DNA of 59,660 bases from positions 1-59,660 of the forward strand of contig CANMBF010000013.1 in the NCBI GenBank assembly GCA_947496065.1, read 5' to 3'. This document shows positions 1-38,760 of the stretch, in pieces (positions within the stretch are counted from its first letter, which is position 1; every line of letters starts with the position of its first letter). This DNA comes from Bacteroidota bacterium (GTDB taxonomy: Bacteria; Bacteroidota; Bacteroidia; NS11-12g; UBA955). Under the pieces are notes generated by a model. It worked only from the letters and a program-made list of their open reading frames with translations, did no database searches and was not told the DNA's origin. Position numbers and translations under genes: made by a program.

Positions 1-214
1 GGAGGTGGCTTCAATTGAACAATGCTCAAAATTCTAAAGATAATTTTATTAATAGAAAGTGGATGAGATTATTTGCATGATCTCAGGGGAGGTGGCTTCA
101 ATTGAACAATGCTCAAAATTCTAAAGATAATTTTATTAATAGAAAGTGGATGAGATTATTTGCATGATCTCAGGGGAGGTGGCTTCAATTGAACAATGCT
201 CAAAATTCTAAAGA
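1..214. repeat. 87-bp tandem direct repeat, 2.46 copies
   Basis: Copies start at 1, 88 and 175. The first two are identical over 87 bp. The third matches for 40 bp (175-214) and then diverges into a hairpin. Each unit contains the palindrome TTCAATTGAA and a small inverted repeat TGAGAT/ATCTCA. No coding frame is evident. Because it lies at the window edge, it could be a real tandem array or an assembly artefact at a contig end. Confidence 0.9.
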
Positions 215-324
215 ATTTTGAGCATTTATTTTTTCATCCAGTCCCCTTCAAGCACTTCGCGCTTGGGGGCCTAGATGAAAAAATAAATGGCCTTCCGCAT
301 TTGCGGAAGGCCATTGTTCAATTG
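186..324. repeat. Cloverleaf-like nested inverted repeat next to tRNA-Ser
   Basis: An outer 13-bp perfect inverted repeat (186-198 with 312-324) encloses three hairpin arms. Arm 1 is 195-208 with 213-226. Arm 2 is 223-238 with 274-289, capped by an inner stem 249-253/261-265. Arm 3 is 286-298 with 303-315. The arms share a few bases at the junctions, so the branch point could migrate. The right end overlaps the encoded CCA of tRNA-Ser. The left outer arm lies inside the third copy of the 87-bp repeat. The function is unknown; arm 3 can serve as the tRNA terminator. Confidence 0.85.
274..315 (-). terminator. Intrinsic terminator of tRNA-Ser
   Basis: A 13-bp GC-containing stem (286-298/303-315, 4-nt loop) lies 8 bp after the tRNA 3' end on the minus strand. 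A T-rich tract (complement of 274-285) follows it. Confidence 0.8.
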
Positions 325-410
325 GCGGAGAGTGAGAGATTCGAACTCTCGATACCTTGCGATATACACGCTTTCCAAGCGTGCTCCTTAAGCCACTCGG
401 AAAACTCTCC
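323..410 (-). tRNA. tRNA-Ser (anticodon GGA)
   Basis: On the minus strand the 7-bp acceptor GGAGAGT/ACTCTCC, the anticodon stem CACGC/GCGTG with loop TTGGAAA (anticodon GGA at 374-376), the long class II variable arm and the T arm with GTTCGAATC are all visible. A 3' CCA is encoded. The length of 88 nt including CCA fits serine tRNA. Confidence 0.97.
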
Positions 411-34925: not shown

Positions 34926-35478
34926 AATAATGTTAAATAAACCGAGGAAACAAATTTGATTTCGAAAGTTTCCGCAGTTTATTGATGAACCTTGTTTTTT
35001 ATCGGATTAAAAATTCATGGTTTGTTAAGGAGGAAATGACTTTTTTCAAATTGTATGCTAAAGCGGTGCGAATTTACGAACCTTATTTTAATATAAAGTT
35101 AAATTCTTTGTATTTGAAAGTGAGATTTTTAATAAACAAAAAAGCTACTTAAAAAAATAAGTAGCTTCTTTGCATCAGCATATAACATGGGGAATTGCAA
35201 AAACAGAATTTACAATCACATTTAATAGATAGACGCAATGGTTTTAAAAAAGTTGCAATGGGGGGTGATTAATGACGGAAAAATGACAGAGAAACAATAT
35301 GATAATGAGTTAATTTGATAATTTGATAATGATGAAAGTCCTGCTATTATTAGATGTTGTGATTATGTTTAGGTTTTTACCTTTGATTGAAAATGTTAGG
35401 GGGATGTGAGTCTAAAATTATATTTTTCGAAAAAGCGATTCTTCATATTATCAAATTATATTTGCGCTAGTAAATAAA
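34926..35478. other. 553-bp AT-rich intergenic region
   Basis: No coding frame is convincing. It contains a 10-bp hairpin at 35142-35151/35158-35167 (AAGCTACTTA/TAAGTAGCTT) followed on the minus strand by a T run, several GATAAT repeats near 35297-35330, and the tRNA-Arg promoter box at its right end. The hairpin looks like a minus-strand terminator, but no gene precedes it on that strand, so a short unannotated transcript cannot be excluded. Confidence 0.6.
35457..35464 (+). promoter_or_regulatory. -7 box of tRNA-Arg
   Basis: TATATTTG, a perfect TAnnTTTG, 14 bases before the tRNA 5' end. Confidence 0.65.
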
Positions 35479-35550
35479 GGCTTTATAGTTCAATGGATAG
35501 AACGAGGGTTTCCGAAGCCCTAAATTCAGGTTCGATCCCTGATAAAGCCA
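35479..35550 (+). tRNA. tRNA-Arg (anticodon CCG)
   Basis: 72 nt. Acceptor GGCTTTA/TAAAGCC (7 bp), D arm GTTC/GAAC, anticodon stem AGGGT/GCCCT with loop TTCCGAA (anticodon CCG at 35512-35514) and T arm TCAGG-TTCGATC-CCTGA. Discriminator A at 35550. CCA is not encoded. Confidence 0.97.
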
Positions 35551-35680
35551 CAAGCTCTTTTTGATTGCTGCCGAAGGCAGCAATTTTTGTTTGGAGGACT
35601 TTGAAAATTTATTTTCAAAAGGCCTTCCAACAAAAATTGCAAAAATGCCATGCATTTTTAAGCAATCAAAAAGCGCTTGT
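35550..35680. repeat. Cloverleaf-like nested inverted repeat abutting tRNA-Arg
   Basis: The outer stem pairs 35550-35569 with 35661-35680 (19 of 20 positions). Inside are arm 1 (35565-35572/35576-35583, loop GAA), arm 2 of 61 nt (35580-35591 paired with 35629-35640, and 35600-35607 with 35612-35619) and arm 3 (35641-35648/35652-35659, loop CAT). Arms 1 and 2 share bases at the junction. The block starts at the tRNA discriminator base. Its plan matches the block at 186-324, although the sequences differ. Confidence 0.85.
35565..35592 (+). terminator. Intrinsic terminator of tRNA-Arg
   Basis: 8-bp stem TTGCTGCC/GGCAGCAA with loop GAA, then TTTTTGTTT, 15 bp after the tRNA. Confidence 0.85.
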
Positions 35681-35686
35681 TAGGCA

Positions 35687-35762
35687 CCCTATGGCAGAGA
35701 AAGCTCGAAATGAAAATTACGGGTTTTATTGCCAATTTGGGTCGAGCTTTCACGCCATAGGG
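35687..35762. repeat. Two-stage inverted repeat (9 + 9 bp)
   Basis: CCCTATGGC (35687-35695) pairs with GCCATAGGG (35754-35762). After a small internal loop, AAAGCTCGA (35700-35708) pairs with TCGAGCTTT (35742-35750), enclosing a 33-nt loop. It resembles the outer-stem/internal-loop/inner-stem plan of the hairpins at 9602-9693. It lies between the cloverleaf and the convergent T9SS gene. Confidence 0.8.
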
Positions 35763-35848
35763 CTAGCCCCGAGAGGCACAACGCAGTTATCCCTGATAAA
35801 GCGGGTTGTATTTAATACAATGGAAAACTCCATCCAAAAAAGGGTGAA

Positions 35849-37900
35849 TTACCAAACAATTACTTTTTCAAAAAATAGTGATTGATTTACCAAGAACCTG
35901 AACAAATAAACCCCTTTAGGTAAGTTAACCTCAGAAACATTTTCAGTTTCAATTATTTTTTTTCCGGTGATATCTGCTACAAGCAATTTATAGTCCTTTT
36001 CATAAGAAATAAATACCTTTTCATTGGTTGGGTTTGGGTAAATTTTGATCCCTGCATTCTGCAAACTAATGAAGCTAACGCTAAGTTTGTTTACATTGTA
36101 TTCTAAACTGCTTCTATTACAATGACCTTTCTTTGCTGCTTCGACCCGGTAAGTGCTAGTATCAGTTAATTTGATAAAAGGTTGTTTCGTAATTAAATAC
36201 TGGACATTGTTCTTATACCATACAAAGCTATCTGCAAGTTGGTGGTAGGTGTATAATGTGTCGTTGCTTCTATAAATGCTTGGAATGGTTAGATTGTTAA
36301 TACATTCTGTAATCACCATCGTGTCGATTACTGCGCAAAAAGATTGACTGATAGCCGTACAAATAAATACACCTACTGTATCGGCATTATAGGTGCTTAA
36401 ACTTGAACCATCTTTGAGCCAAATTTGGCAATGCATGCCATAAGGTGCTTTCAACTGTTTATTAATTAATGAGCCTGAAGCAAAAGATGTGTCATTACCC
36501 AAATACTGCTTAGTTATTTTAGGGTAAATATAAATTGTTTTAATGATTGTATCATTTCTGCTGCCTTTAATTGCAATATAACTAATTTGATAATTACCAG
36601 TATCCGCAAAATAATGACTTATATTTTTTGTAGTATAGGTTGCTTCAATTTGCTTATTACTTTTTTTGATTTGCCAGTTATGGGATGTTGCATAAAACGT
36701 ATCTCGTCCTTCAAATTTCACGGAGTTGCTAATACAATCATAGTTATATGCAAAGTCTACTGTAGGAGTAAAGAAATAGCTTTGAATAAAATTTGGTAGA
36801 CCGAACATATTTCTTTGAGGATATATGCTATCCTTCTTTAGCGGATTTATTCCCGAAATAACATATTGGTTTGCATTATCGATGGCCGTTAGATATGATG
36901 AATCAAAGTAGGTTAAGTATATAATCCCATTACTTGCCGACTGAACACTTTGGATTACATTACCCATTTTGAATTTTTTTATGATTCTTATCTTGTTATT
37001 AGAAATACTATATATGCATACAAAGTTGGTATCACTTGTAAAACCAGTAATTATTAAATTACTGTCATTTTCCGAAAATTCAAGACCATAAGGCTGAAAA
37101 TTAAGCTTAATAAACTTGTAGAAACTTAGTTTTCCGCTAATATTTGAAAATGTAAATAACTCAACTTTTTTATTATCTAAGAGTGTGTTAGCAATGAACC
37201 TGGAATTATGGGAAGCTTTCAGATACCCTTCACAATTCGGTCTAAAATTTATATTATAATTTAAAAAGCTACCAACAGGTGACAACACCGGGCAATTGAT
37301 CACTCCATTTTCCTTAATGAGATAAGAAATGAATATATTGTCAATATAAGTATGGCCAATGATCCATAAATCCTTGTTGTTCTGATGGAATACAGACGTT
37401 AGTTTTTCTGTTGATGATGAATTCAAAGGAATATTTTTCCTGATTACTCTTCCTTTCCCCCCATTCTGATATATATTTATAAGTGTGTAATGTAACCCTC
37501 CATAATCCAGAACAAAAGGAGTTGTAAAAATGTAGTATAAACTGTCATTGTCTGGGTGTTTACAAATGGTAGCTGATTGGGTGGAAGAAGTATGTCCTAA
37601 TAGTCCATCTGTGATGGTATCATGGAATTTATTCCACACTGTAAGCCCATCTGTGTACAATAGAAGATTACCGGCAGTATCTGATATTATTGATGAACCT
37701 TCTGTAGCGAGCATTTTGCCATCAAATAATTTTGAAGGTGGTATTGAATTCAAATTAGTTCCTGCATATTGTCCAAAATACCAAATATTAGTTCTTTTCC
37801 TTTCAGGATTAGTTTCATAACTTCGGTTTGACTGTCCGTGGCTAATGGAAAACTTTATTAGTAGCAGAAAAAGTAATATATTTTTAATCCCTCTTATCAT
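35849..37900 (-). CDS. T9SS-secreted protein with propeller-like N-terminal region and PKD-like domain
   Basis: 683 residues. The signal peptide is NILLFLLLIKFSISHGQ. The N-terminal NIWYFGQYAG, ISDTAGNLLLYTDGLTVWN and GLLGHTSSTQSATI patterns are characteristic of a large Bacteroidota group of secreted proteins with a beta-propeller-like region. A PKD-like segment lies near residue 400 (KSNKQIEATYTTKNISHYFA), and an Ig-like stretch follows. The C-terminus (IKIYPNPTNEKVFISY, GVYLFRFLVNQSLFFEKVIV) is a type A sorting domain. The role is unknown; surface adhesion or gliding-associated function is possible. It converges with the tRNA-Arg block. Confidence 0.88.
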   Translation of the reverse strand: MIRGIKNILLFLLLIKFSISHGQSNRSYETNPERKRTNIWYFGQYAGTNLNSIPPSKLFDGKMLATEGSSIISDTAGNLLLYTDGLTVWNKFHDTITDGLLGHTSSTQSATICKHPDNDSLYYIFTTPFVLDYGGLHYTLINIYQNGGKGRVIRKNIPLNSSSTEKLTSVFHQNNKDLWIIGHTYIDNIFISYLIKENGVINCPVLSPVGSFLNYNINFRPNCEGYLKASHNSRFIANTLLDNKKVELFTFSNISGKLSFYKFIKLNFQPYGLEFSENDSNLIITGFTSDTNFVCIYSISNNKIRIIKKFKMGNVIQSVQSASNGIIYLTYFDSSYLTAIDNANQYVISGINPLKKDSIYPQRNMFGLPNFIQSYFFTPTVDFAYNYDCISNSVKFEGRDTFYATSHNWQIKKSNKQIEATYTTKNISHYFADTGNYQISYIAIKGSRNDTIIKTIYIYPKITKQYLGNDTSFASGSLINKQLKAPYGMHCQIWLKDGSSLSTYNADTVGVFICTAISQSFCAVIDTMVITECINNLTIPSIYRSNDTLYTYHQLADSFVWYKNNVQYLITKQPFIKLTDTSTYRVEAAKKGHCNRSSLEYNVNKLSVSFISLQNAGIKIYPNPTNEKVFISYEKDYKLLVADITGKKIIETENVSEVNLPKGVYLFRFLVNQSLFFEKVIVW

Positions 37901-38046
37901 ATAAGATTTAAGACACTAAGGTAATGTTTTATGTTGTATTTTGTAATTTGGTTCATTAATTCCAATGCTATGAATGCATTGGCAAATATAATTTAACTGA
38001 TTGGTTATTGTTTATAAATAAAACATGTTATAAATCTACAAAAAGT

Positions 38047-38637
38047 TCATCTCATCAACACCAATTGAGCGCTATACCCTAAATCAGGAATGCGAAGGGT
38101 ATACAACCCATTCTCAAATTCGAATAAATTTATTTCAATAGTTGAATCCCAATAATTGCCAGTAAACACAAGTCTGCCACTAGGGTCATAAATGTCAATT
38201 GCCACTGGTTTAGAGAGAGGATGTTCGAATCGTATATTTAAATTTCCTTGGCAAGGATTTGGGAAAATGAACTCTAAATTTAGTGGAGTTGAATCAATGT
38301 CAATTTTTGAAAGAAGATTAGACTTTATGATTTTATAGTTTTTTGTTGTTGAATTAAGCTTAAAGCTCACTAAATATATGCCATTTGGTAAACCTGCGCC
38401 AAAATAAAAAGCATAGGAGCCACTTTGCAAAAAGGTATCCTTATACAAAGAATCAACTTTTTGTCCAAGTGTATTGTAAGCAATAATTGAAACTTTTGTG
38501 GCTGAAGCGATATCAAAACTTATTAAAATTGAATCGCGAAAAGGGTTGTGAGAAAATCGCAAGTTGTCTTGTGCAAATAATCTACTTACGCTAATTAGTA
38601 AAAAGGCCAATAGAATAATCTGCTTTGATGGTCTCAT
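38047..38637 (-). CDS. Secreted protein consisting of two T9SS sorting-domain-like modules
   Basis: 196 residues from ATG 38637, chosen because MRPSKQIILLAFLLISVSRL with cleavage near LFAQ is a signal peptide and a perfect -7 box lies 7 bases upstream. An ORF open to 38730 adds no plausible start. Module 1 (about 22-105) has FSHNPFRDSILISFD, YNTLGQKVDSL and GIYLVSFKLNSTT. Module 2 (about 122-196) has FIFPNPCQGNLNIRF, YDPSGRLVFTG and NGLYTLRIPDLGYS. Both follow the PNP...GxYxxxx pattern of type A sorting domains. No cargo domain lies between signal peptide and modules. It might be a decoy, an adaptor or the remnant of a larger protein. Confidence 0.82.
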   Translation of the reverse strand: MRPSKQIILLAFLLISVSRLFAQDNLRFSHNPFRDSILISFDIASATKVSIIAYNTLGQKVDSLYKDTFLQSGSYAFYFGAGLPNGIYLVSFKLNSTTKNYKIIKSNLLSKIDIDSTPLNLEFIFPNPCQGNLNIRFEHPLSKPVAIDIYDPSGRLVFTGNYWDSTIEINLFEFENGLYTLRIPDLGYSAQLVLMR

Positions 38638-38643
38638 CCAAAA

Positions 38644-38651
38644 CAAATATA
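38644..38651 (-). promoter_or_regulatory. -7 box of the two-module T9SS-type gene
   Basis: TATATTTG on the minus strand, a perfect TAnnTTTG. The ATG at 38637 lies 7 bases after it. Confidence 0.65.
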
Positions 38652-38700
38652 AGTAAATGTAATTGGTTTGTGCGACTCTTTTTTTTGATGTGAATGAATG

Positions 38701-38760
38701 CAGTTGGTGAGAACACCAACTGCGGAACATGAGAACACCAAATGCGGCACAGGAGAATGC
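38701..38760. repeat. 22-bp periodic repeat with hairpin
   Basis: GAGAACACCAA starts at 38709 and 38731, with a degenerate third copy (GAGAATGCC) at 38753, giving a 22-bp period. The first copy also forms a perfect 9-bp hairpin CAGTTGGTG-AGAA-CACCAACTG (38701-38722). It lies between frr and the two-module gene, both on the minus strand. Confidence 0.7.

Follow-up and report, generated by a model that had tools for sequence, protein, structure and literature searches.

Known elements at tRNA ends and folded recombination sites

The 3' ends of tRNA genes are a classic docking site of bacterial mobile DNA, where the integrase is encoded by the guest. Other mobile DNA is recognized by its shape: the attC sites of integrons are read as folded single-stranded DNA, are defined by their fold with little conservation of sequence, carry asymmetric extra bases in the stem and consist of one hairpin that contains the R and L boxes (GTTRRRY etc.). 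Repeats behind a tRNA gene are also known from E. coli, where tyrT is followed by tandem 178-bp units (rtT RNA) that all include a copy of the tRNA 3' end; we know of no cloverleaf plan or conserved right-end hairpin in them. Casposons and Cas1-type integrases target the extreme 3' end of tRNA genes, duplicating 14-15 bp there (PMC6977970). REP elements are described as small, gene-less hairpins of 20-40 bp with a GTAG tag varying to GYAG (PMC3733652).

The folded units characterized here measure ~130-220 bp and stand behind tRNA genes. As with integron cassettes, units that differ from one another line up behind a single anchor, the site is defined by its fold with little sequence conservation, genes are occasional and, as a hint only, a stem carries asymmetric extra bases; unlike such cassettes, the units are anchored at a tRNA gene, are mostly gene-less and have four stems instead of one, and the genome in which we found them has only two Phage_integrase proteins, both of Xer size (306 and 312 aa) and of unassigned class. 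They share with casposons the position at the tRNA 3' end; in Sphingobacterium a 17-bp repeat (AATCCC..CCGC) flanks units on both sides, which, in the absence of a clean empty site for comparison, may or may not be a duplicated target. By our reading they have no inverted repeats at both ends, and Cas1 is missing from 9 of 14 carriers. Like the REP/BIME elements, which RAYT (Y1) transposases move, they are small gene-less hairpin structures, often with GNAG after the fold, but they are longer, the tRNA end is repeated and several carriers have no Y1_Tnp. As for a MITE-like build, the outer stem provides inverted repeats only at the left end, and the right end lies past its 3' strand. Because of their small size there is no room for an integrase gene inside, and none of the genes located between right ends is an integrase. 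No description of such units was found in text searches of mainly open-access literature, which included no preprints and few subscription papers.

Two cloverleaves behind the two tRNA genes of the window

The window, i.e., the whole stretch of DNA analysed, comprises 59,660 nucleotides of contig CANMBF010000013.1 from a Bacteroidota bacterium (assembly GCA_947496065.1). The initial annotation, made from the letters alone, had proposed that its only two tRNA genes are each followed by a block of the same plan, an outer stem enclosing three arms. ARAGORN indeed finds two tRNA genes (Table 1). For tRNA-Arg(CCG), direct reading of the outer stem (ACAAGCTCTTTTTGATTGCT at 35550-35569 against AGCAATCAAAAAGCGCTTGT at 35661-35680) confirmed that 19 of its 20 positions are paired and that its first base is the discriminator base of the tRNA; of the three arms that it encloses, the first is a short GC hairpin whose loop is GAA, the second is long (~60 nt) and the third is again a hairpin. 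Folded as single-stranded DNA, positions 35551-35683 adopt this cloverleaf with -42.9 kcal/mol and a z of -8.65, a value that none of 200 dinucleotide shuffles equalled. The same plan holds at tRNA-Ser(GGA), with a z of -12.78 and again 0 of 200 shuffles. Since the outer stem and arm 1 share a few bases, arm 1 has an alternative, longer terminator-like hairpin, GCTGCCGAAGGCAGC, followed by AATTTTTG. The cloverleaf fold is also present in the units at tRNA-Arg(CCG) of three relatives.

Table 1. Position of the tRNA genes and of the adjoining structured features in the window
Feature	Positions	Strand	Basis or remark
tRNA-Ser(GGA), anchor of first block	323..410	-	ARAGORN
First cloverleaf, outer stem from tRNA end	188..322	-	Fold
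Tandem 87-bp 5'-truncated units with right ends GAGATCATGCAAATAATCTC	1..214	-	Overlap the end of the first cloverleaf
tRNA-Arg(CCG), anchor gene	35479..35551	+	ARAGORN; Rfam gives 35479-35550
Cloverleaf: outer stem, terminator-like arm 1, long arm 2, arm 3	35550..35680	+	Reading, fold, closed-fold test
Tail 3' of outer stem, TAGGCACCC	35681..35689	+	Counterparts in relatives AAGGCCACCC, TAGGCCACCC
Second palindromic unit, CCCTATGGCAG...GCCATAGGG	35687..35762	+	Sequence reading
Variant right end AGAGGCACAACGCAGTT (AAC/GTT around GCA loop) and tRNA 3' copy	35772..35802	+	

Directly after the cloverleaf at tRNA-Arg stands GTTAGGC, the place occupied by GNAGRMC in other units, and directly after the variant right end a 14-nt copy of the 3' part of the tRNA is found (ATCCCTGATAAAGC, 35789-35802). 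The tRNA was the sole family above the gathering score when Rfam 15 was run on the window, and again the only one to reach it when the region 35450-35850 and four other loci were searched with an E-value threshold. Phage matches of the locus are confined to the tRNA.

Several features of the surroundings deserve mention. A build similar to that of the second palindromic unit was seen by eye after tRNA-Arg(ACG) (L048), after tRNA-Phe (L060) and, behind a terminator, after tRNA-Val (L054). Between the tRNA-Arg array and the gene of the ribosome recycling factor (35849-38730) lie genes of 683 and 227 aa with a secretion sorting tail, which may be cargo of the array; the relative G004 has no match to this segment and a far shorter gap there. 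A repeated palindrome, GCAGTTGGTGAGAACACCAACTGC, is present at 38698-38757 and is found inside the tRNA-Arg array in the relatives G006 and G011. At the other end of the window, the contig stops inside the tRNA-Ser(GGA) array after 2.5 truncated units, and some contigs of relatives likewise stop near arrays.

Closed folds at the tRNA ends of the genome

The frequency of such folds was determined for 28 ARAGORN tRNA genes of the same genome (G000), taken from the window and 20 further regions. A fold was called closed if it started at most 4 nt from the tRNA end, closed at 95-160 nt, contained at least two hairpins, had 70% of its bases paired and reached -0.33 kcal/mol per nt. This energy test took the place of two others: a loose multibranch test, which could not tell tRNAs from shuffles, and an ungapped 12-nt outer-stem test, which could not tell tRNAs from ORF ends or random points. 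Closed folds were found at 7 of 28 tRNAs, at one of 286 ORF ends, at none of 600 random points and in none of 560 dinucleotide shuffles, in line with the earlier claim that two such blocks are unlikely to be chance. Four energy thresholds were computed; with the laxer one of -0.30 the figures are 7/28, 1/286, 2/600 and 1/560. The seven genes are Ser(GGA), Arg(CCG), Asp, Ser(TGA), Cys, Ser(GCT) and Arg(TCT), and the minimum-energy fold has three hairpins in all of them except Ser(TGA), which has two. The other 21 tRNAs fail the test, and several of them have other palindromes. Two findings had been named in advance as refuting the idea of a family: an equal frequency in shuffled DNA, which is excluded, and tRNA genes without the structure, which do exist (21 of 28) and are compatible with elements that occupy only some sites.

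A conserved right end that copies the T-arm

A conserved right end, GGATCAYGCARTAATCCC, stands 3' of the fold. The fold is followed by a tail with CCC and then by the motif, e.g., GGGATCACGCAGTAATCCC, which is itself a hairpin of the form GGGAT-c-AY-[GCA]-RT-a-ATCCC, its 3' strand copying the 3' strand of the T-arm of the tRNA. The T-stem of the tRNA-Ser(GGA) of the window ends in CTC and the 5' strand of its right end is GAGAT; the 5' strand is not adapted in the second unit of the locus L110. In the genome of the window, the right end of the Arg(CCG) unit is a variant, and the canonical motif is lacking in the units at Asp and Cys.

Allowing up to one mismatch, the pattern occurs in 10 of 17 genomes of the genus and in 14 of 59 genomes overall (the present one included), at 35 places in these 59 genomes against one for the reversed control. 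In nine named genomes, 22 of 26 places found with the same tolerance follow a same-strand tRNA by no more than 800 bp (none for the reversed control), and two of the four others belong to an array that we read as cut off by an island. Searching 84,980 species genomes for the exact motif gave 79 matches in 71 stretches. Of these, 46 follow a same-strand tRNA at a distance of up to 400 bp (129-168 bp for 32 of them), and none of the 79 lies only upstream of a tRNA or only on the opposite strand. The 46 are not independent, since tandem copies were counted singly and one genome is represented by two records. All except one belong to records with Bacteroidota titles, whose genus placement we presume, or to the genus-mate G004 (L142); the exception, 359 bp from a tRNA in an Acetatifactor record (L130), is probably due to chance. 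Many of the remaining 33 matches are in other phyla or near a contig end. The Y/R pair of the hairpin near tRNAs is C-G in 25 cases, T-A in 20, T-G in one and C-A in none, while away from tRNAs C-A accounts for 8 of 33. The exact 18-mer was absent from 394 other genomes of a phylum sample, and in IMG/VR the right end has a single match, at a locus without a tRNA.

One plan in unrelated sequences

The initial annotation had further suggested a family of structured elements at tRNA 3' ends. This family is real, and its plan is common to other Bacteroidota: the 32 distinct units delimited by a tRNA and an exact right end fall by blastn into 29 sequence groups, and 29 of the 32 have a z below -4 (median -7.2). 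In only 17 of them does the minimum-energy fold both begin no more than 6 nt from the tRNA and contain at least three hairpins, competing pairings being found in others. In many units, as judged by eye, a T-tract follows the GC hairpin that forms arm 1. A crude test for a bulge in arm 2 detected an apex in 21 of 39 units, the 3' side being longer in 17; some of these hits were other arms, and the asymmetric bulge near the tip of arm 2 is a hint only.

In Sphingobacterium the cloverleaf unit is multicopy, without matches in plasmids or phages, and the covariation check advised at the outset could be carried out there. The alignment (A1) contained 32 units, picked by a regular expression from 32 of 40 loci (L264-L295) and two further loci, with non-fitting copies excluded, and its structure was supplied by hand. 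Covariation was borne out: 96.8% of the cells are paired and 16 of 32 pairs show changes on both sides. The covariation score was 0.248, compared with 0.133 in shuffles (0 of 500 as high) and 0.04-0.08 when partners were slid by 1-3 columns; the shuffles ignore relatedness and the slid-partner control keeps it. Further pair types numbered 31 versus 26.2 in shuffles (4 of 500). RNAalifold alone recovered arms 1 and 2 from this alignment and neither the outer stem nor arm 3, in part owing to gapped 3' columns. When the outer stem was anchored at its inner end, its paired cells numbered 338; shuffles averaged 305, and none of 2000 was as high.

A second family of units, ~150-170 bp long, is also found behind tRNA-Ser in Sphingobacterium (L167, L281, L283, L287). 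It opens with a terminator-like hairpin (GGAGCTTCAATC... in L167, L281 and L283) and closes with another hairpin, then AATCCC and the tRNA 3' end.

Signs of insertion in relatives and arrays

Comparison of relatives provided several signs that units may have inserted at given tRNA genes. In Sphingobacterium allocomposti, units that are 90% alike are present at tRNA-Ser(GCT) and tRNA-Ser(GGA) (L160, L167); the copy at tRNA-Ser(GGA) stands behind a different first unit, and each copy is flanked on either side by the AATCCC...CCGC of its own tRNA, a repeat of 17 bp. Two species also differ at a syntenic tRNA-Ser(TGA) that is divergent from tRNA-Arg(TCT): the cloverleaf is present in one and a different unit in the other, and the identity of 84% over 377 bp ends at the last base of the tRNA. 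The locus of the window behaves similarly: G006 (90.6% identity along 1627 bp) and G011 (92.6% along the final 95 bp) match it up to 35551, diverge exactly there, have another unit and rejoin at 35772-35810 with 92-100% identity. G004 keeps the cloverleaf of the window (79.7%) and is 100% identical at the variant right end, but its matches to 35689 and from 35772 sit 2 bp apart; the ~82 bp in between (35690-35771) are absent there, and a palindrome of like build is placed after the right end instead. We did not encounter a clean empty site; what was found were sites holding another unit, such as the syntenic tRNA-Ser(TGA).

Further observations come from the arrays. Tandem units within one array are often near-identical, and downstream units are often 5'-truncated. 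Arrays of unlike units sharing an end also occur (L304, L306), with genes in L097 and L194/L098; recombination at the shared end was not shown. The genes between right ends encode an AraC-type regulator and a short-chain dehydrogenase in L097, WapI-like and WG-repeat proteins as well as two without family in L194/L098, and one without family in L099. A complete Weeksellaceae chromosome contains three units in a row after an 18-nt fragment of a tRNA-Ser, with an integrase gene adjoining, which we read as an array severed from its tRNA by an island. Its middle unit is unlike its neighbours in sequence, yet folds into a cloverleaf (z of -9.43), and its first two units recur after an intact tRNA-Ser. 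Separately, the region 5000-8400 of L194 resembles a cassette array, with gene-bearing stretches of ~1 kb split by tRNA-3'-like ends, e.g., CCGGTTCGAATTCTATCCAATAGGGATCAC.

These data bear on the best surviving alternative, namely that the structure is a terminator or 3' processing RNA element of the tRNA, owned by the host and inherited with the gene, with tandem units and copies of tRNA 3' ends having arisen when the AATCC of the T-arm and the one after the right end recombined by unequal crossing-over. The terminator-like first arm, the near-identity common among tandem units and the fact that none of Y1_Tnp, Cas1 and RVT_1 is common to the carriers all speak for such an element. We nevertheless regard it as unlikely, because three quarters of the tRNAs (21/28) do without the fold, unlike units occupy the same tRNA in genomes that are 90-92% identical there, as well as the syntenic tRNA-Ser, and neither a right end located beyond the terminator, nor genes between right ends, nor unlike units within one array would be expected of it. 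The word used at the outset was that the elements settle at tRNA ends. This mobility remains an inference: it is supported by the unlike units at one tRNA in relatives, by the arrays of unlike units and by the repeated tRNA ends, while no enzyme was identified and no event was seen.

The search for a moving enzyme

Four enzyme families were searched: Phage_integrase, Y1_Tnp, Cas1 and RVT_1. The genome of the window has two Xer-sized Phage_integrase proteins and two Y1_Tnp proteins, and neither Cas1 nor RVT_1. Y1_Tnp (PF01797) has matches in 13 of 19 genomes and is absent from the carriers G005, G007, G519, G504 and G495; Cas1 (PF01867) was detected in 5 of 14 carriers only, RVT_1 is absent from 10 of 14, and an integrase beyond Xer size is absent from some. 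The carrier G495, for instance, has two Phage_integrase proteins and one RVT_1, without Y1_Tnp or Cas1. Within these four families, an Xer-sized integrase is thus the only common denominator, which points to an Xer-type or an unknown enzyme acting on folded single-stranded DNA; this is a guess, not a result. A casposase-like integrase making staggered cuts would fit the 17-bp repeat, but Cas1 is missing from most carriers. Target-primed reverse transcription was considered as the origin of the 5'-truncated downstream units and is disfavoured, since RVT_1 is missing from so many carriers and palindrome-linked deletion at short repeats is simpler.

Other recombinases were noted in the course of this search. 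A recombinase of 345-379 aa in relatives has no tRNA in the stretches examined around it. A shortened tyrosine recombinase of 235 aa, resembling XerA and integron integrases with scores below the cut-offs, lies beside the distal end of the array of G456 (L304, 6321-7028); it scores 170 bits against TIGR02249, below the cut-off of 265.

Integrases of ~400-450 aa are located directly behind tRNA genes in relatives, and this raises a second alternative: the units could be debris from the attachment sites of ordinary tRNA-targeting islands or phages with tyrosine integrases, the palindromes being a by-product. Islands do seem to have displaced arrays: at L191 (9700-10100), L264, L266, L270 and L304 (7000-7700) only a 3' fragment of the tRNA is left before the cloverleaf array, and there islands appear to have moved the array away from its tRNA. 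Debris is nonetheless an improbable origin, as no cloverleaf was seen between the tRNA and the integrase in six such loci (L188, L189, L192, L196, L198 and L199, inspected by eye and not folded), one plan of ~130-170 bp is kept across unrelated sequences, and carriers exist with only two Xer-sized integrases. Finally, hot-spot inverted repeats perfected by template switching, without selection or mobility, are a very improbable source: template switching can perfect imperfect palindromes and the truncated downstream units fit palindrome-linked deletion, but the right end is conserved beside tRNAs across many Bacteroidota, the three-arm plan is kept in unrelated sequences and its start is fixed at the tRNA-end base.

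A proposed mechanism and its significance

We therefore hold it probable, with mobility as the inferred part, that the units are miniature, usually gene-less, non-autonomous cassettes of Bacteroidota which insert directly at tRNA 3' ends. The reading rests on the observed fold and its covariation, the position at the tRNA end, the conserved right end, the repeated tRNA 3' ends, the arrays of unlike units and the unlike units at one tRNA. One unit of ~130-220 bp would consist of a cloverleaf and a right-end hairpin. The outer stem of the cloverleaf would begin at the last base of the tRNA, the long arm may often have an asymmetric bulge near its tip, and the first arm, a GC hairpin with a T-tract, should be able to end transcription of the tRNA. 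The right-end hairpin, often with a GNA triloop, would present as its 3' strand that of the T-arm of the target tRNA. Insertion is envisaged to keep the tRNA whole and to place beyond the unit a second copy of the tRNA 3' part, which runs from the A of the T-loop to the acceptor end (17 bp for Sphingobacterium tRNA-Ser). With this part repeated beyond each unit, the locus could take up more units and grow into an array of unlike ones, in some cases with genes between right ends. A site-specific recombinase or integrase acting in trans is inferred to move the units, and their fold may be kept because this enzyme, still unidentified, reads it as folded single-stranded DNA.

In our opinion the units are probably small non-autonomous mobile elements, with a real chance of being a new class. 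The full form of that class can be put forward only tentatively, as a possibility short of a probability: fold-recognized cassettes docking at tRNA 3' ends, which read the T-arm via the complementary right-end hairpin, replace the terminator of the tRNA, build integron-like arrays and are moved in trans by an unknown recombinase, perhaps of the host (Xer-type).

For Bacteroidota, these results mean that in many of their genomes the 3' ends of tRNA genes are occupied by gene-less folded units, in which the sequence is free and the structure is kept. The units may underlie some of the repeats and contig breaks seen downstream of tRNA genes and, if they are mobile, their covarying cloverleaf makes the search for an enzyme that reads DNA folds directly testable. 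They can supply the terminator of the tRNA and build arrays with occasional genes and, if they are mobile, they would provide an integron-like route of gene capture without a known integron.
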